Positions 3,706 through 41,426 of a DNA stretch of 64,000 bases are shown here, one piece after another. Position 1 is the stretch's first letter. Each line of letters begins with the position of its first letter. The stretch covers positions 124,001 to 188,000 of the forward strand of contig NZ_FPKV01000001.1 in NCBI RefSeq assembly GCF_900114265.1, given 5' to 3'. Source of the DNA: Flaviramulus basaltis (GTDB lineage Bacteria > Bacteroidota > Bacteroidia > Flavobacteriales > Flavobacteriaceae). The translations under genes were made by a program, and so were the position numbers. The notes beneath the pieces are model-generated. The model searched no databases and was not told where the DNA came from. It saw only the letters and a list, made by a program, of their open reading frames with translations.

Positions 3706-4256
3706 ATTTTCTTAACTTTACAAAATATTTCACCCCCATTTTTTCTGTTTTGAAACTTAAAACTGAACATATAAAACCTAAAACCTACCTCCCATTACTT
3801 TGTGTTTTGTGGTTTTTAATGTCATGCGGAAGTCATAAAAACATGGCTACACAAGAATCTTCAATTGAAAGCAGCCCAAAAATTATCTTTTTAAATTATA
3901 ATATTAAGAAAACTGCTGATAATAAAAGAAGTATTAAATTTATTAACAAGATAGTAACTGATGGTAAGTTAAAAAAAACTGATGTTCTTGAAGATGGTAT
4001 TATAGGAGATTTAGTTTGCATGCAATTAGATAAAAATTCAAACACATTACAACGCTTTATTATAAAAAACCCACTGGTTAAAAACATTGAATATATTGAT
4101 GAATCAAATTCATTTCAAAACAAAAAAATTGATTTAGATAGTGCTCAGTTTTCATTAAGACTGCAATTGAGACCAAACACAAAGTATATTGCTATTAGTA
4201 ATTTTAGTACTTCTGAAAACCCAAAAAAACCTTTGATAAAAACAAATATTAATTAA
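3693..4256 (+). CDS. Putative lipoprotein of unknown function, coupled to the M64 peptidase gene
   Basis: I do not recognise the family. The protein has a hydrophobic segment ending in a lipobox (WFLMSC then GS), so it should be lipidated and exported; the rest (about 140 residues) is a polar, beta-rich domain with no motif I can name. Start choice is uncertain: the ATG at 3693 lies inside the terminator hairpin of the upstream gene, whereas a TTG at 3750 would give a typical 26-residue lipoprotein signal (MKLKTEHIKPK then the hydrophobic core). I favour 3750 but keep the longer frame. Its stop overlaps the next start by one base (TAATG), so the two genes are probably co-translated and the protein may assist the secreted peptidase. 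Confidence 0.6.
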   Translation: MSLFYFLNFTKYFTPIFSVLKLKTEHIKPKTYLPLLCVLWFLMSCGSHKNMATQESSIESSPKIIFLNYNIKKTADNKRSIKFINKIVTDGKLKKTDVLEDGIIGDLVCMQLDKNSNTLQRFIIKNPLVKNIEYIDESNSFQNKKIDLDSAQFSLRLQLRPNTKYIAISNFSTSENPKKPLIKTNIN

Positions 4257-5686
4257 TGAAACACGTATTATTCTTAATATTATTTTTGGTTAATGTGATG
4301 CAAGTTTCATCTCAAATTTTTGATGTGGAGACGCTCAAGCTTTCTGGTGATACTAATAAAAGAATAAATCTCGTTATTTTAAGTGATGGCTATCAAGAAA
4401 GTGAACTAAATCAATTCACTATTGATGCAACAGATTTTATGAACGACATGTTTTCACAATCGCCATTCGCTGAATATGTTGATTATTTTAATGTTTACAT
4501 CATAAAAGTACCATCCAATGAAAGTGGTGCAGATCATCCAGGAACAGCTAATGATGTTACTGAACCTGCTTCTCCTGTGCTTAATGTTGATACTTATTTT
4601 AATGCCACTTTTGATGCTTATGGATTTCATCGTCTTTTATTTTATGAAATAGATGGAAGTTATGCGAATAACACTGAAGCTAAAATTTATGATGTTCTAG
4701 CCAATAATTTTCCTAGTTACGATCAAGCTTTAATACTTGTTAATTCTAACGTTTATGGCGGTAGTGGCGGCATATTCCCAATGGCTTCTAAAGGTGTTGT
4801 TAATGGTGTAAAAGCAACAGAAATTGCCATACATGAATTAGGACATTCTTTATTTGATTTGAAAGATGAATATTTCCCTCTAGACGAAATTTATTTTAGT
4901 GAAGCTATTAACATGACACAACAATCAGATCCCAGTTTAATAACATGGAAAAATTGGTTAGGCACTAATGGAATTGGTATTTATCCATATAACAACTCTG
5001 GCTTTGCGGCAAATTGGTATAGACCTCATCAAGGTTGTAAAATGCGTTATTTAAGTTATCCATTTTGTTCCGTTTGTAAAGAAGGTATTATTGAAAAAAT
5101 ACATGATTTAGTTTCTCCTATTGATTCGTATACCCCATCTTCAAATATGGTTAACAGCCCAAGTTTTCCTATTGATTTTCAGTTGAATTTAATAAACCCC
5201 ATACCTAACACCTTACAAAGAGTTTGGACATTAAACGCTTCAAATTTCACTAATAATGTTGATGCTGTTTCACTTATTGAAACCGATTTAGTTGAAGGCA
5301 CAAACACCTTAAAAACTGTAGTTAATGATGCTACCACACTATTAAAAACAGATAATCATGAGACCATACATGTTTATACAGTAACATGGACTATAAATTA
5401 TTCTGCTTTGGGTGTTGAAGATATTAATAGCATCATGAATAATTTAAGCATTACTATTTATCCAAACCCAACAAACAACATCATTAATTTTAAGTTTGAA
5501 AATAGTAATAATTTAAACTTAAAAATTGATGTTGTAGGATTAGATGGTAAAAAACTAAAGTCATTATTGGTCTCAAATTATGAAACTCAACAATTAGATA
5601 TTAGTAATTTAAGTGCTGGAATTTATCTAACAAATTTCTATGCTAACAATACACTTGTAGCTAGTAAAAAAATAGTAAAAAATTAA
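4256..5686 (+). CDS. Secreted M64-family metallopeptidase with T9SS type A sorting domain
   Basis: A 476-residue protein: signal peptide (residues 1-20, ending VSSQ), a catalytic domain with the zinc motif HELGH at 193-197 followed by DEY near 204 (the M64, 'IgA peptidase', pattern HExxH...DE), and a C-terminal domain of about 80 residues (IYPNPTNN ... GIYLTNFYANN ... KKIVKN) that is a typical type A type IX secretion signal. It should be exported through the T9SS, whose PorU and PorV components are encoded later in this window. Substrates are unknown. It follows the lipoprotein gene with a one-base overlap and ends two bases from the convergent SDR gene. Confidence 0.88.
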   Translation: MKHVLFLILFLVNVMQVSSQIFDVETLKLSGDTNKRINLVILSDGYQESELNQFTIDATDFMNDMFSQSPFAEYVDYFNVYIIKVPSNESGADHPGTANDVTEPASPVLNVDTYFNATFDAYGFHRLLFYEIDGSYANNTEAKIYDVLANNFPSYDQALILVNSNVYGGSGGIFPMASKGVVNGVKATEIAIHELGHSLFDLKDEYFPLDEIYFSEAINMTQQSDPSLITWKNWLGTNGIGIYPYNNSGFAANWYRPHQGCKMRYLSYPFCSVCKEGIIEKIHDLVSPIDSYTPSSNMVNSPSFPIDFQLNLINPIPNTLQRVWTLNASNFTNNVDAVSLIETDLVEGTNTLKTVVNDATTLLKTDNHETIHVYTVTWTINYSALGVEDINSIMNNLSITIYPNPTNNIINFKFENSNNLNLKIDVVGLDGKKLKSLLVSNYETQQLDISNLSAGIYLTNFYANNTLVASKKIVKN

Positions 5687-30700: not shown

Positions 30701-33700
30701 CTATAATTTTAGTGAAAAATGACCAGTAAATTCAATGTCAATATCTAATTTCACAGTAAACCAATAATCAGATGATGTCATATTTTCTCCACGAAAAGTT
30801 CCATCCCAGCCATTACTATTTGAGTTAATTTGTTTTAAAAGCTTGCCATATCTATTATAGATAAAAACAACTGCATTAGGATAATTTGCAATACCTTTAA
30901 TCTTCCAAAAATCATTTATTCCATCTCCATTAGGTGTGAAATACTTGGGATAATCTATGATTGCTACATTTCTAGAATCTTCTCCACATCCAAACCTATC
31001 CTTTACAGAAACTGTATAAACGCCTCCTAAAACATCACTAAAAAAATTGCTATTTTGATAATTTATACCATCTATTGAATATTCAAAATCACCATCACCC
31101 GAAGCTATTATTTCAATAAAATTATTATCAGATAACTCATTGTATTCTACATTTGTAATCGAAGGCAATACTGAGCGTATTAGCTCAAAATCAAAATAAT
31201 TTTCACAATAAATTCCATTTTTATTTTCACCAATAGTAAGCGTATAATTCCCCGCGTTAATTAAGTTAGCTTCAAAAGTATTTGAAATATTAGTTCCATC
31301 TTGATACTCCCAATTATAAGTATCTAAATTGTTATCAACACTTATACTTAATGAAGGTTCTAGATTACAAATAAAATAAGTTTCTACTATGTTTACGGTT
31401 GGTAATTCATTCACTATTAAATCAAAACTTGTTTCGGAATAGCACAAACTATTTAGCTCATTCTCCACCCTAACTTTAATATTTTGTAACCAAGGTTCTG
31501 TATTTTGAAAAAAAACTGGCAGAGGACTTGATAATTGGTTTCCGTTAGCATCAAAATAAATTATTCTTAAACCATTTTGATTACCAATAAGGTCTGCTTC
31601 AATATTGGATGTATCAAAATCAGCAAAGCCATTTCCTAAATCACAACCATAAAGTACTTGTGGCTTATTAACTTGTGGTTGTGAATTTGTATTTAATACT
31701 AAAGATGTTTCTTCATAACAACTTGTTTGTGGGTTTATAACTCTTACCGTAATTGTTTCTATGTTTATAATTGAGTTTGTATACGGGTTTGGTAAGGAAC
31801 TTGGTAATTCGTTTCCATTAGCATCAAAATAAGAAACTTCCATACCTGTTTGGTTGCCTAAAACTTCTGTTTCAACATTTGAAGTATCAAAATACTCTGA
31901 AATACCATCATTATTATCATCACAACCTACTAATTCGGTTAAAATATTTGCTGTTGGCAATGGGTTTACCATTAATTTAAACGTAGTTTCGTTATAACAA
32001 TTTGTATCAGTATTAATTGCACGAACAGTAATTTCCTCTTCGTTTATAACCAAATTTTCAACAGCATTTAGTGGCGATTGTATTTGCTGGTTATTTTGGT
32101 GATAAAATTCAATATCTATATTACTACTATTGTCTATTATGTTTGATTTAACTTTTTCTAAATCAAAAACGGAAAAACCATCTGTATCATTATTACAAAC
32201 ATATAAGTCTGAAGCAGATGTTAAATCCGGTATAGGATTTACAATTAAATCGAAGGTTGTTTCTGAAGAACAACAAGGATTATCTTTATGTGCAACCCTT
32301 ACGATTATAGTTTCTATATCTTTAATGGTATTTGCAAATAAATTTGGTAATACATCATAATTATTCCCAGAACCGTCAATATAAGTTACAACCTTATTTA
32401 CCTGACCTCCCAAGACCTGTTGCTCAACTGAGGATAAATTAAATGAGGATGAAAAACCTGTATTAGAATTATCCTCACAAGCATAAACATTATTAATTCC
32501 ATATGCATTTGGAGGCTCTTTAACATCTATTGTTTCTGTTAAAACCTCAACACTACCATCTTTACCAGTAACTGTAGCGTTAATGGTGTATGTTCCATCT
32601 ACAGAAAAGTCGTGAAAAGGTGATAAATCTGTGGAGGTATTATTTAATCCTGAAGTTGGGTCATCAAAATCCCATATTACTGAAGCTATGTTTGCTTTAT
32701 TCTCTACACTAAACTCTTTTAAAAACTCCGAACAAATATTTGAAATATTCATTTCGAAATTGTTTGTAATGTGGTTTACGTTTCCTGTTACGTTTATATA
32801 AAAATTAGCTTCTGGTCTTCCAAAATCAGCAGTTGAAACATACTCATTATAATCAAAATTAGTTCCTCCTGCTACATTAGTACATCCTCTTTGCCATGAA
32901 ACATCATTGTCTTGGGTTGATCCTGCTATAAAAGCTACCCCATCTCCATAAACAATTCCTTTATGCACTTCTACTAAAATTCTTTCAACATTTGCTGGAA
33001 TTACTATTGGTGTATCAAAATCAACTTCAATAATCTGAGAAGTGCGATCTATGTTAGGTGAAAGTTGCTGATATTGACTACTTCCTATTAAATCTGTTTC
33101 AGAAAATGAAGCAGGAAAATTATCGTCTATTTTATAAATATTAAAACTAATTTCTGGCAACCAACCCGTTTTATTAATACCAACTTGTCCAGAATTAATC
33201 ACAAATTCTTCATTTTTTGATATACCAAATTCTTCTAAGCTAAATGATCTCGCCCAATATATATATGATGATGTACATGAGTGTATACCTGTTTCAATTA
33301 TATCATCACACAAATTATGAGACAGCCTTGTTGTTGAACCAAAACTTTGTATATCATATACTTCCCCAGTTACATTAATAAAAAAATTTGCATTTGGAAC
33401 AGGTGTGGTTAAATCAGTAGTTGAAGTTAAACTATAGTTCTCTTGACAACCTTCATACCAAGATACTCCTGGATCATTAGCAGTACCAGCTATAAAAACT
33501 TCTGCTGATTCTGGATTGTAGAAGTCTTCATATTTTTTTACAGTAACTAAAATTCTATCAATACCAGCTGGAACGATTATTGGTTCTTCAAAGTCTACTT
33601 GGATAATTTCTGGATCACCGTTAATAATTGGTGCTTGACCAATTCCTCTTGCTCCTAGTAAAGTCCTTGGGTATAATGAATAAAAAAAATCTGGGAAATT

Positions 33701-33964
33701 TTCATCAATACTGTAAACATAAAATTGCAATGATGCTCCACTACTAGATTTGCTAAGCGCTACTTGTCCTGATTTAATTATAAATTGTTCATTTGCTGAA
33801 ATACCAAATTCCGATAGCTTGAATACCCTAGACCACCCTTCATCTCTTTCGCAAGAAAACATATTTGTCTCAATAGGTACTGCTCCAACATTATGAGTTA
33901 ATGTAATTTGAGCCGACAAGCAAAAGCTTAACAAAACAAATAAAACCGAAAGAATATTCCTCAT
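30701..33964 (-). CDS. Large secreted repeat protein with T9SS type B (gliding-associated) C-terminal domain
   Basis: A 1087-residue extracellular protein: signal peptide ending LSAQ, two related N-terminal modules of about 190 residues (FKLSEFGISANEQFIIKSGQ and FSLEEFGISKNEEFVINSGQ; each ending FFINVTGEV or FYINVTGNV), a PKD-type domain (VIWDFDDPTSG ... GTYTINATVTG), about four tandem repeats of about 85 residues with a conserved Cys pair and a TTFxLxVNPxP end, and the type B domain (PKYFTPNGDGINDFWKIKG ... GWDGTFRGENM). It is exported by the T9SS and likely surface-bound or an adhesin. It heads the five-gene operon. Confidence 0.88.
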   Translation of the reverse strand: MRNILSVLFVLLSFCLSAQITLTHNVGAVPIETNMFSCERDEGWSRVFKLSEFGISANEQFIIKSGQVALSKSSSGASLQFYVYSIDENFPDFFYSLYPRTLLGARGIGQAPIINGDPEIIQVDFEEPIIVPAGIDRILVTVKKYEDFYNPESAEVFIAGTANDPGVSWYEGCQENYSLTSTTDLTTPVPNANFFINVTGEVYDIQSFGSTTRLSHNLCDDIIETGIHSCTSSYIYWARSFSLEEFGISKNEEFVINSGQVGINKTGWLPEISFNIYKIDDNFPASFSETDLIGSSQYQQLSPNIDRTSQIIEVDFDTPIVIPANVERILVEVHKGIVYGDGVAFIAGSTQDNDVSWQRGCTNVAGGTNFDYNEYVSTADFGRPEANFYINVTGNVNHITNNFEMNISNICSEFLKEFSVENKANIASVIWDFDDPTSGLNNTSTDLSPFHDFSVDGTYTINATVTGKDGSVEVLTETIDVKEPPNAYGINNVYACEDNSNTGFSSSFNLSSVEQQVLGGQVNKVVTYIDGSGNNYDVLPNLFANTIKDIETIIVRVAHKDNPCCSSETTFDLIVNPIPDLTSASDLYVCNNDTDGFSVFDLEKVKSNIIDNSSNIDIEFYHQNNQQIQSPLNAVENLVINEEEITVRAINTDTNCYNETTFKLMVNPLPTANILTELVGCDDNNDGISEYFDTSNVETEVLGNQTGMEVSYFDANGNELPSSLPNPYTNSIINIETITVRVINPQTSCYEETSLVLNTNSQPQVNKPQVLYGCDLGNGFADFDTSNIEADLIGNQNGLRIIYFDANGNQLSSPLPVFFQNTEPWLQNIKVRVENELNSLCYSETSFDLIVNELPTVNIVETYFICNLEPSLSISVDNNLDTYNWEYQDGTNISNTFEANLINAGNYTLTIGENKNGIYCENYFDFELIRSVLPSITNVEYNELSDNNFIEIIASGDGDFEYSIDGINYQNSNFFSDVLGGVYTVSVKDRFGCGEDSRNVAIIDYPKYFTPNGDGINDFWKIKGIANYPNAVVFIYNRYGKLLKQINSNSNGWDGTFRGENMTSSDYWFTVKLDIDIEFTGHFSLKL

Positions 33965-38368: not shown

Positions 38369-39475
38369 ATGCCAATTTACATGGATCGTCATGAAATACC
38401 AGAGGAAATTACCGCTGAGCATGTAGCAGAAATGCATCAAGAAGATTTAAAGGTCCAACATTTATTTGGCTGTAAAGGCATGACCTATTGGTGTGATGAA
38501 AATAGAAAAACAGCATTTTGCTTAATTGAAGCGCCAAATAAAAAAGCAATTCAAGAAATGCATAATCATGCACATGGTGAAGTCCCTAATAGAATTATTG
38601 AAGTAAATGAAAACATTGTAGCGTCTTTTTTAGGCCGTATTGAAGACCCAGAAAAATCACAAAACACCAAATTAAACATCATTAACGATCCTGCTTTTAG
38701 AGTAATTATGCTTATTGAAACCAGTGACTATTTACACAGACTTGAAGGCAATCAATTTAGCTTATTCTTACAAAAGTTTCATAATAGTATTACAAAATCT
38801 TTCAAGCAATTTAACGGTAGTATTGCAAAACAAGACAATAATAGTTATTTAGTTTCCTTTGCATCGGTTTCTAATGCTATTTTATGCGCCTTGAAAATTC
38901 AATATAATTTTAAATACATTACTTCAAAATCTGATGCTTCATTACGAACATTAAATATTGGGATTAGCTCTGGTTCTCCTGTTACCAATAAAGATTCCTT
39001 TTTTGAAGAAACTATAACCTTAGCCAAACAATTATGTGAAATTGTAGATCACCAAATTGTTATTACCTCTGAAGTTAAATCACTTTATGAAAGTGAAAAC
39101 AGAAATAAATTTATTAATAAAGAGCATGTTAGAACAATTAACCACGAGGAAGAAAAATTCTTAACAGATTTAATGGATTTTGTAGAAACAATATGGAATA
39201 AGCCCGATTTTAATGTTAATGATTTTAGTACAAAATTAGGCTTTAGTAAATCTCAATTAAACAGAAAACTAAAAAACTTAACAGGAAAATCACCAAATAA
39301 TTTTATTGTAGAATATAAATTACTGCAAGCACTTAAATTATTACACGAACAAAAAGGAAACATCTCTGAAATAGCTTTTGAAACAGGCTTTAACAGTCCT
39401 GCTTACTTCTCAACATGCTTCAAAAATAAATTTGGTATTCTCCCTTCAAAATACATTCAGCAACACCTTATTTAA
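38369..39475 (+). CDS. Three-domain regulator: DUF4242 + degenerate class III cyclase domain + AraC-type HTH
   Basis: A 368-residue protein with an unusual order. Residues 1-88 fit DUF4242, a small ferredoxin-like fold with a nickel-binding member (SCO4226). Residues 110-245 resemble a class III nucleotide cyclase domain: VIMLIETSDY, KQDNNSYLVSFASVSNAI, LNIGISSG and ITLAKQLCEIV, but the first metal Asp is Glu117 and the catalytic N-x3-R pair is missing (TLAKQ, 217-221), so it is probably a non-catalytic sensor. Residues 265-365 are an AraC-type double HTH (VNDFSTKLGFSKSQLNRKLK and ISEIAFETGFNSPAYFSTCFK). It sits between a receptor gene and a hemoglobin-oxidase pair, which it may control. Confidence 0.8.
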   Translation: MPIYMDRHEIPEEITAEHVAEMHQEDLKVQHLFGCKGMTYWCDENRKTAFCLIEAPNKKAIQEMHNHAHGEVPNRIIEVNENIVASFLGRIEDPEKSQNTKLNIINDPAFRVIMLIETSDYLHRLEGNQFSLFLQKFHNSITKSFKQFNGSIAKQDNNSYLVSFASVSNAILCALKIQYNFKYITSKSDASLRTLNIGISSGSPVTNKDSFFEETITLAKQLCEIVDHQIVITSEVKSLYESENRNKFINKEHVRTINHEEEKFLTDLMDFVETIWNKPDFNVNDFSTKLGFSKSQLNRKLKNLTGKSPNNFIVEYKLLQALKLLHEQKGNISEIAFETGFNSPAYFSTCFKNKFGILPSKYIQQHLI

Positions 39476-39562
39476 ATTTCAAAAAATTTTAATATTTTTT
39501 CTAATGGTTCAAAATTATCATTTTTTGAACTAAATCTATAATAGCTAACGTTTTAGTATTCA

Positions 39563-39570
39563 TAATTTTG
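39563..39570 (+). promoter_or_regulatory. Promoter -7 box of the hemoglobin-FAD oxidase unit
   Basis: TAATTTTG matches TAnnTTTG, 23 bases before the ATG at 39594. A weak inverted repeat (GTTCAAAA / TTTTGAAC, 39507-39530) lies upstream and might be a terminator or operator. Confidence 0.5.
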
Positions 39571-39593: not shown

Positions 39594-39968
39594 ATGACCA
39601 ATACACTTTTTGAACGATTAGGAGGAACAAATGGGATTTCAAACATTGTAGATGACACTGTTGAAAACCATATGAATAACCCAGAAGTTAATGCTAGGTT
39701 TCTTCCTTTTAAAAACAAACCCGACCATCTTGCTATTATAAAACAACACACCATAGATTTTTTTAGTGCTGGTAGTGGTGGTGATGCAAAATACAAAGGT
39801 AAAGATATGATAACTGCTCATACAGGTATGAATATTAGTTCCACTGAATACATGCATGTTATGGACGATATTTTTACGGCTTTAGACAAAAATAATATTG
39901 ATGAAGTTTCTAAAAAAGATGTACTTGCTATTTTATGGTCTTTAAAAGGAATGATAATTTCTAAATAA
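39594..39968 (+). CDS. Group I truncated hemoglobin
   Basis: A 124-residue protein with the truncated hemoglobin pattern: LFERLGGTNGISNIVDD at the N-terminus, a middle FFSAGSGGDAKYKGKDM segment and AHTGMNISSTEY, in which His76 lies at the family's proximal heme ligand position. Such proteins bind O2 or NO. It starts at an ATG after a -7 box, and the FAD oxidase gene follows after 30 bases, so the two are co-expressed. Confidence 0.88.
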   Translation: MTNTLFERLGGTNGISNIVDDTVENHMNNPEVNARFLPFKNKPDHLAIIKQHTIDFFSAGSGGDAKYKGKDMITAHTGMNISSTEYMHVMDDIFTALDKNNIDEVSKKDVLAILWSLKGMIISK

Positions 39969-39998: not shown

Positions 39999-41387
39999 AT
40001 GAAAAACCTAGTCAAAAATTTAGACTCTTCAATAATTGAGGCATTTACTTCACAATTAAGAGGGAAACTTATTAAACCAACAGATTCAGATTATAATGAA
40101 ACACGAAAAGTTTACAATGGCATGATAAATAAACATCCTGGAATGTTTGTTATGTGTGTAGATGTAGCTGATGTTATAGCTGCTGTAAACTTTGGAAGAG
40201 AAAACAATTTATTAATTGCAGTAAGAGGTGGCGGACATAATGGTGGTGGATTAGGATTATGTGATGATGGATTAGTCATCGATTTATCTGGTATTAAATT
40301 TATTCGAGTAGACACGTCAAATAACACTGTTAGAGTTGGTGGCGGAAACCTTTGGGGAGAAGTAGACCATGCAACACATCCTTTTGGATTAGCTGTTCCT
40401 GCGGGAATTATTTCGACAACTGGTGTTGGCGGATTAACATTGGGAGGAGGTGTTGGCCATTTATCAAGAAAATATGGTTTAACAATTGATAATTTATTAG
40501 AAGCAGATATGGTTTTAGCAGACGGAAGCTTCGTTACAGTAAATAAAGATAAAAACACCGATTTATTTTGGGCCATTCGTGGTGGTGGTGGAAATTTTGG
40601 AATTGTAACATCCTTTAAATTCCAAGCACATCCTGTAAAAACAGTCATTGGCGGACCAACTTTATGGCCTATTGAAAGAACTGAAGAAATTATGGCTTGG
40701 TACCATACATTTATTAATAACGCTCCAGACGAATTAAATGGTTTTATAGCGACTATGATTATTCCTGGTCCTCCTTTTCCAGATTTTTTACACGGAAATC
40801 AATATTGTGGTATAGTATGGTGCTACACAGGCAAGCAAGAAGAATTTGATAAATTGATAAAACCTGCTATGGATTTAAATCCTGTGTTTGCACATTGTGG
40901 AGAAATGCCTTATCCCTCTATTCAAACGTTGTTTGATGGCATGATGCCACACGGTTTACAATGGTATTGGAGAGCAGACTTTTTTAATGAATTAGGCCCA
41001 GAAGTTAGTGAGCAACATTTAAAATTTGGTTCTAAAATACCAACACCTCTATCTCAAATGCATTTATACCCAATTAGTGGAGCTGCAAGCAGAGTTGGAG
41101 CAGAAGATACGCCTTGGGCTTATAGAGATGCCAAATATGCAGGTGTTATTGTTGGTGTAGATCCAGAACCTAAAAATGCAGATAAAATAACCAACTGGTG
41201 TAAAGATTATTGGGAAGCATTACACCCTTACTCATCTGGTGGTGCCTATTCAAATTTTATGATGGATGAAGGACAAGAACGTGTAAAAGCTAGCTATAAA
41301 CATAATTATGAGCGATTATCAAAAATAAAAAGTAAATACGACCCAGATAACGTATTTAGAGTAAACCAAAACATCAAACCAAATTGA
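39999..41387 (+). CDS. FAD-binding oxidoreductase of the berberine bridge enzyme type
   Basis: A 462-residue flavoprotein with an FAD_binding_4 domain and a C-terminal BBE domain. The motif AVRGGGHNGGG holds His80, the usual covalent FAD attachment site; TTGVGGLTLGGGVGHLSRKYG is the second FAD region, where the extra cysteine of bicovalent members is absent. The C-terminus ends with YSNFMMDEG and YDPDNVFRVNQNI. These enzymes oxidise sugars, alcohols or amines with O2. There is no signal peptide, so it is probably cytoplasmic. It follows the hemoglobin gene and ends in a terminator. Confidence 0.9.
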   Translation: MKNLVKNLDSSIIEAFTSQLRGKLIKPTDSDYNETRKVYNGMINKHPGMFVMCVDVADVIAAVNFGRENNLLIAVRGGGHNGGGLGLCDDGLVIDLSGIKFIRVDTSNNTVRVGGGNLWGEVDHATHPFGLAVPAGIISTTGVGGLTLGGGVGHLSRKYGLTIDNLLEADMVLADGSFVTVNKDKNTDLFWAIRGGGGNFGIVTSFKFQAHPVKTVIGGPTLWPIERTEEIMAWYHTFINNAPDELNGFIATMIIPGPPFPDFLHGNQYCGIVWCYTGKQEEFDKLIKPAMDLNPVFAHCGEMPYPSIQTLFDGMMPHGLQWYWRADFFNELGPEVSEQHLKFGSKIPTPLSQMHLYPISGAASRVGAEDTPWAYRDAKYAGVIVGVDPEPKNADKITNWCKDYWEALHPYSSGGAYSNFMMDEGQERVKASYKHNYERLSKIKSKYDPDNVFRVNQNIKPN

Positions 41388-41392
41388 TCAAA

Positions 41393-41426
41393 AAAAACCT
41401 GTTTCAAATTAATGAAACAGGTTTTT
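41393..41426 (+). terminator. Terminator of the hemoglobin-FAD oxidase unit
   Basis: Stem AAAAACCTGTTTC / GAAACAGGTTTTT with a short AT loop, starting a few bases after the stop codon; perfect pairing over 13 bp. It may also act for the convergent pdhC gene. Confidence 0.85.

Follow-up and report, generated by a model that had tools for sequence, protein, structure and literature searches.

A DUF4242, degenerate cyclase and AraC fusion protein of Flaviramulus basaltis as a probable DNA-binding switch with a predicted operator at an adjacent truncated globin operon

We asked what a protein might do that carries, in a single chain, a small sensor-like domain, a class III nucleotide cyclase domain that has lost its catalytic residues and an AraC-type DNA-binding domain. 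The gene lies in a 64,000-nucleotide stretch of the Flaviramulus basaltis genome (contig NZ_FPKV01000001.1, positions 124,001 to 188,000; hereafter the window, from whose first letter all positions are counted). An earlier note had proposed that the protein is a one-component switch whose cyclase fold may bind, rather than make, a nucleotide. The layout of the gene is as follows:

38369..39475, + strand: DUF4242, dead class III cyclase and AraC HTH regulator, 368 amino acids (open reading frame, Pfam, fold matches of the model)
38369..38605, + strand: SCO4226-like (DUF4242) domain, residues 1-79 (Pfam, fold, invariant H8, H23, D26, C51 and H65)
38606..38680, + strand: linker, residues 80-104 (FLGRIEDP segment, found slightly altered in HTH-less cyclases as well)
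38681..39145, + strand: cyclase homology domain, residues 105-259 (phmmer, fold; catalytic residues lost, K154 kept)
39146..39472, + strand: AraC-type DNA-binding domain, residues 260-368 (Pfam, fold)

The proposed domain order was borne out by Pfam for the outer domains and by phmmer and model folds for the middle one. The SCO4226-like family PF14026 matched residues 4-79 (E 3.4e-21; 75.6 bits against a gathering score of 28.5) and HTH_18 (PF12833) matched residues 287-364 (E 1.6e-19). In the AlphaFold model of the 368-residue protein, which was built with 11 sequences (pLDDT 79.7, with stretches of only 52-63 in parts of the linker and cyclase), the AraC part is a two-HTH domain that matches 3lsg (Z 16.5 over 103 residues, rmsd 1.6). 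The fold list for the whole model did not cover DUF4242; therefore this domain was modelled alone (pLDDT 87.7), and it matched SCO4226 (4oi6) with Z 12.8 over 81 residues (rmsd 1.7), the next match reaching 9.4. Guanylate_cyc (PF00211) gave no Pfam match in the window protein up to E 1 and was matched in all four of the HTH-less relatives scanned (E 1.3e-17 to 1.5e-10). Residues 105-253 matched the cyclase Ma1120 (E 4e-5, phmmer), and residues ∼106-270 of the model matched class III cyclases, with Z 15.5 for Cya2 (152 residues, rmsd 3.7) and 15.4 for both Rv1900c and Ma1120 (cyclase matches spanned 144-152 residues). Structure prediction, which had been named as a possible refutation, thus placed this segment among the cyclases, and the middle domain, as modelled, is a genuine cyclase fold. 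Between the window gene and its relative L009, dN was 0.082-0.098 per domain at a dS of 1.1-1.8, and this low dN relative to dS indicates that every domain, the dead cyclase included, is under purifying selection. The genome holds three copies of the regulator (100, 51 and 43% identical to the window protein) and no other DUF4242. The gene product is probably a switch that binds DNA, with a dead enzyme domain standing between its sensor and its gene-control part, and the idea of a one-component switch is supported to this extent.

In an alignment to intact relatives, the window protein has E117 in place of the first metal Asp, N158 in place of the second, S210 for the base-selecting Asp, T217 for the Asn and Q221 for the Arg, and keeps only the base-contacting Lys, K154. 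The loss of the first metal Asp and of the Asn/Arg pair had been pointed out before; N158 and S210 add to it. (Residue 115, which the phmmer alignment to Ma1120 would put at the first metal position, was rejected since the alignment to the intact L028 gives E117.) Five of the six catalytic residues are therefore absent and, to judge from the sequence, cyclic nucleotide synthesis by this protein is not expected. The alignment comprised 144 non-redundant proteins: 132 with DUF4242, cyclase and AraC domains (hereafter fused), 7 with DUF4242 and cyclase and no HTH, and 5 with cyclase and AraC. They were drawn from 204 by removing near-duplicates (containment or identical first 200 residues); L153, cut at a contig end, and L181, a broken copy, were excluded. 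All seven HTH-less cyclases have both metal Asp residues and the Arg, six (all but L182) also have the Lys and Asp that contact the base, and the Asn position holds N in two and Q in five. Among the 132 fused proteins, Asp occupies the first metal position in 19, the second in 45 and both in 14, and both metal Asp residues occur together with the Arg in 6; the full six-residue set was found in none, even with Gln allowed for Asn. The fused protein nearest to an intact one, L026, is missing only the Asn, and the Pfam scan gives no cyclase match for it either. Close homologues were likewise checked for intact catalysis: in the 50 relatives that share at least 50% identity with the window protein, Asp is never found at the first metal position and occurs at the second in nine. 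Variability is highest in the cyclase, with a mean entropy of 2.58 versus 1.51 for DUF4242 and 1.92 for AraC, and at similar DUF4242 identity the identity of the cyclase is lower in fused than in HTH-less proteins (0.27 versus 0.42, 0.35 versus 0.45 and 0.48 versus 0.75, with 8, 2 and 3 pairs on the HTH-less side).

The DUF4242 domain behaves differently: H8, H23, D26, C51 and H65 are invariant in all 132 fused proteins and are kept in six or seven of the seven HTH-less cyclases. In 40 stand-alone DUF4242 proteins, W41, C51 and H65 are present throughout and E78 in 30, and H8, H23 and D26 are not kept; 33 of these proteins are longer than 110 residues and carry an N-terminal extension, which may be an export signal.

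A conserved site was found in the intergenic region 3' of the regulator gene:

39506..39538, + strand: predicted operator, a direct repeat of 12-bp half-sites (39506-39517 and 39527-39538) with a period of 21 bp (conserved site 3' of the regulator)
39563..39570, + strand: predicted -7 box TAATTTTG, 24 bp after the operator (TAnnTTTG consensus)

Statistics were computed on the 99 of 115 downstream regions that have at least 33 bases, and the matrix used in the shuffle test left out sites at least 80% alike. The operator score beat all 100 shuffles in 77 of the 99 regions (75 of 93 once six DUF4242-less or broken genes were set aside). In these 77 sites position 1 is always G and position 11 always T, and position 22 is G in 76. 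Where the sequence reaches far enough (65 cases), TAnnTTTR starts exactly 24 bp past the operator in 54. Self-similarity of the operator is highest at a spacing of 21 (0.576 versus 0.22-0.34 at 11 other spacings); 2000 re-pairings of half-sites between sites gave a mean of 0.540 and a maximum of 0.593, so that covariation within sites is not above the best re-pairing. TAnnTTTG, at -12 to -5, is the -7 box of flavobacterial sigma-A promoters (PMC9723704); on this count the half-sites would span about -69 to -58 and -48 to -37. A sigma-70 scan of the region gave no more matches than chance. An inverted repeat, GTTCAAAA-N8-TTTTGAAC, is also present in the window and was rejected as the operator: nine of the 115 downstream regions contain such a pattern (0.14 by shuffling), whereas the direct repeat passes in 77 of 99.

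The site was then sought in the whole genome (4.19 Mb) and across loci. Four genomic places fit the whole operator pattern with at most two mismatches; three of them directly follow the genome's three paralogous regulator genes, the window's without a mismatch and the other two with one and two, and the fourth is probably a chance match. With up to three mismatches allowed, a reversed control gave 23 places against 21 for the pattern, so weak matches alone mean nothing. Operator and box together occur in 79 of 99 loci of fused regulators (88 sites in 0.94 Mb, with a matrix built from sites in these same loci), or in 77 of 95 once four contigs that, by their length, are represented twice (L010/L104, L011/L105, L012/L106 and L014/L109) are counted singly; the 99 include the window and two loci of the same genome, L121 and L155. 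Twenty column-permuted matrices gave no site nineteen times and one site once. The combination was found in none of the 21 loci of relatives that lack DUF4242 and in none of the 7 loci of HTH-less cyclases, of which four are alphaproteobacterial plasmids and hence a weak control. The DUF4242-less L188 passed the shuffle criterion, but its site scores only 3.8 bits. At the threshold used, 20 of the 99 fused loci have no operator with box. In L130, L131, L133, L134, L136, L139 and L140 the operator is found in front of a stand-alone DUF4242 gene located ahead of the regulator, in L143 and L145 it stands before a BBE gene, and none of these nine has the 3' site. In some loci a site lies ∼80-130 bp upstream of the regulator gene, in part of them without the box, an arrangement that would suit autoregulation.

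Downstream of the predicted promoter in the window lie:

39594..39968, + strand: truncated globin (Bac_globin, PF01152), first gene of the predicted target operon (Pfam)
39999..41387, + strand: BBE-type FAD-linked oxidoreductase, the sole PF08031 match in the genome (Pfam)
41393..41426, + strand: terminator-like hairpin at the operon end, a weak feature (one found in the region versus 1.7 expected by chance)

Genes of the same kinds recur behind the regulator elsewhere. Behind 109 fused regulators, which lie in 95 loci, the run of genes on the same strand includes a BBE FAD oxidoreductase (39 loci), a stand-alone DUF4242 protein (25), a truncated globin (22), a cupin (9) and a SnoaL-like protein (9). 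The operator is present in 59 of 62 regions that precede one of these five gene types and in 18 of 37 others. Computation thus shows the domains, the loss of the catalytic residues, a conserved predicted operator, its fixed distance to the -7 box and its linkage to the putative target genes; the globin and BBE genes are probably turned on by the regulator.

We favour, with reasonable though far from complete confidence, a dedicated local activator of the AraC type in which DUF4242 senses, the dead cyclase dimerises or transmits, and the AraC domain binds the predicted direct repeat. A DUF4242 dimer would sense a ligand, either a metal or a small molecule, through H8, H23, D26, C51 and H65; the dimer is suggested by analogy with the families to which the domains belong. 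The signal would run through the conserved linker and a dimer of the dead cyclase, serving as a dimerisation and transmission module, to the C-terminal HTH part. The two HTH domains would then occupy the repeat with its 21-bp period at about -69 to -37, in place of the missing -33 element, and RNA polymerase would be recruited to the TAnnTTTG promoter, so that the adjacent operon of truncated globin and BBE oxidoreductase would be switched on. In this scheme we infer that the protein binds this site, that it activates rather than represses, that the dimer transmits and that DUF4242 is the sensor.

The relatives that lack DUF4242 bear on where the signal enters. A search of 397 genomes from the window's family gave matches at E 1e-22 or better in 101: in 84 the match includes DUF4242 (G551 being broken, and the G640 and G732 proteins HTH-less), and in 17 it covers the cyclase-AraC part only. 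The domain order, put forward in the earlier note as the most unusual in the window, is therefore common within the family. A scan of 395 Bacteroidota genomes gave 24 proteins, spread over 18 genomes, whose match spans both DUF4242 and the cyclase; the AraC part is present in 23 (L022 is cut at a contig end), and L028 has no HTH. Twenty-one DUF4242-less relatives were collected (L186-L188, L190, L195 and L223-L238); 20 are cyclase-AraC proteins, L238 has no AraC hit, and 13 have as neighbour the E2 gene (for a 2-oxoacid dehydrogenase acyltransferase) that also adjoins the window gene. Five pairs of them have dN of 0.12-0.25 versus dS of 1.0-3.0, which indicates that this core is kept for some other use and that a dead cyclase-AraC core can act without the sensor. 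That the operator is absent where DUF4242 has been lost is consistent with DUF4242 providing the local operon's input and falls short of proof. In L230, a cyclase-AraC gene without DUF4242 (4116-4898, - strand) is followed on the same strand by a gene for a 90-residue DUF4242-like protein, possibly an intermediate of sensor loss.

The conservation of the DUF4242-less proteins could also be taken to mean that the dead cyclase is itself the sensor, which binds ATP, GTP or a cyclic nucleotide and so sets the HTH. In line with this, K154 is kept and Lys is found there in 36 of the 50 close relatives; of the same 50, 23 have the Arg and nine the second Asp. However, the window protein has lost both metal Asp residues, the base Asp, the Asn and the Arg, the domain is the most variable of the three, and both operator and operon are missing where DUF4242 is gone. 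We regard this reading as unlikely. Nucleotide binding by the dead cyclase is possible and not favoured; the earlier suggestion of it is not supported, since the pocket residues vary among fused proteins and the five DUF4242 residues do not.

The same mechanism might work with the opposite sign, the protein being a repressor that is relieved by its ligand, since the site alone does not give the sign. The promoters speak against it: the operator keeps a fixed distance upstream of the -7 box, and TTG occurs at -36 to -31 in only 6 of 54 (the commonest single place for it, -28, likewise has 6 of 54). An upstream operator at a fixed distance without a -33 element is the layout of activator-dependent promoters, as with AraC-type activators. 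Repression therefore seems to us a rather poor candidate beside the activator described above.

The fold match to SCO4226 (Z 12.8) raises the question of whether the regulator serves nickel homeostasis, as DUF4242 is the family of that nickel-binding protein. SCO4226 of Streptomyces is a stand-alone protein of 82 residues that binds four Ni per dimer, with D43, S46 and H76 as the Ni-1 ligands (PMC4186839). The window domain has D6, H8, H23, D26, W41, D43, C51 and H65 in common with it, but of the Ni-1 ligands it keeps D43 only: S46 is replaced by R46 and H76 by I76 or I77, beyond the aligned stretch. Even D43 is not fixed in the fused proteins (D in 95 and N in 35 of 132). Of the five invariant residues, all of which SCO4226 shares, H23 alone is a nickel ligand in its crystal structure, and of the other positions D43 (PMC4186839), so that a nickel role does not follow. 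Furthermore, the window protein scores 43.4 bits with NF033706, the equivalog model of SCO4226 nickel-binding proteins, below the cut-off of 125, and the neighbours scanned (globin, FAD oxidoreductase, cupin, SnoaL, sulfur-related and others) include no known nickel gene. There is thus little to recommend a nickel regulator. Finally, a still-active cyclase with an added HTH is extremely improbable, as five of the six residues are gone in the window and the full set is found in 0 of 132 fused proteins, even though 6 of these have both metal Asp residues and the Arg and L026 wants only the Asn.

How did such a protein arise? With no fused protein holding the full catalytic set and all seven HTH-less cyclases holding the metal Asp residues and the Arg, a transcription factor seems to have been made out of an active DUF4242-cyclase. 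The direction from intact to dead is inferred from the intact set in Alphaproteobacteria and from catalysis being ancestral in class III cyclases. In a quick tree of 82 rows, two fused clades each adjoin an intact HTH-less cyclase: L196 stands next to a 22-member clade (support 100) and L182 next to a 53-member one (support 92). This tree needs two changes; a single fused clade was not rejected by the AU test (p 0.078). All 40 AraC domains score the other clade above 16 chance-picked AraC domains, with the proviso that A_L169, a clade B row mislabelled as A, inflates the 'A' scores of clade B rows; these sequence scores would fit one donor. We put forward, with belief and doubt evenly weighed, that a sensory cyclase turned transcription factor, so that the DUF4242 input found elsewhere on an intact class III cyclase controls DNA binding in Bacteroidota and the cyclase is reduced to a non-catalytic transmitter, that apparent intermediates survive in L026 and L033, and that the fusion took place perhaps twice.

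The nearest systems differ in informative ways. Of 72,556 plasmid records, 127 match the L028 query, 15 of them over at least 80% of it; the four proteins retrieved, which come from Rhizobium, Agrobacterium, Ensifer and Azospirillum, lack an HTH; three are named 'nickel-binding protein' and one is unnamed. These DUF4242-cyclases of Rhizobiales and Azospirillum plasmids (e.g. WP_080830418.1) have the same DUF4242, cyclase fold and order and a similar linker, whereas their metal Asp residues and Arg are intact, they lack the HTH and no operator was found near the gene. With the AraC/XylS regulators AraC, ToxT and Rns the window protein has the two-HTH domain in common, and a direct-repeat site next to the promoter is predicted for it; its N-terminal part is DUF4242 and a dead cyclase, in contrast to the cupin-like barrel of AraC and ToxT. 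Mycobacterial cyclase-AAA-LuxR-type proteins such as Rv0386 also join a cyclase, degenerate in some of them, to a DNA-binding domain, but with another HTH family, another domain order and no DUF4242. The component families are known; among the open-licence papers searched, three mention DUF4242, none names it together with AraC, and we found no description of the fusion or its operator. The predicted target site is the new point. It ties the little-studied, sensor-like DUF4242 to a concrete predicted DNA site and target genes, so that a reporter of the 39563 promoter could help to find the ligand. The graded natural series from intact to dead cyclase could in turn reveal how a transmitter is made from an enzyme dimer.

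Several further arrangements were observed. Regulators stand in arrays of two to four in a row in L165, L168, L169, L171, L172, L174, L175 and L123; gene clusters with SoxA/TsdA-cytochrome, DsrE and TauE follow the arrays in L168, L171, L172 and L174, and in L168 and L174 operator and box also precede the cytochrome gene, which makes a sulfur link of the arrays possible. In L136, L197, L198 and L199 a gene of a nitrilase cluster (CN_hydrolase, scanned in L136) follows the regulator instead of BBE, and in L197-L199 a DinB-like cluster is also found behind it. The broken copy in L181 (5217-6334) has DUF4242 and cyclase-AraC in separate frames, with BBE still behind. Elsewhere in the window, 30701-33964 encodes a repeat-rich protein of 1087 residues, the C-terminal segment of which may be akin to a secretion/gliding C-terminal domain of Bacteroidota.
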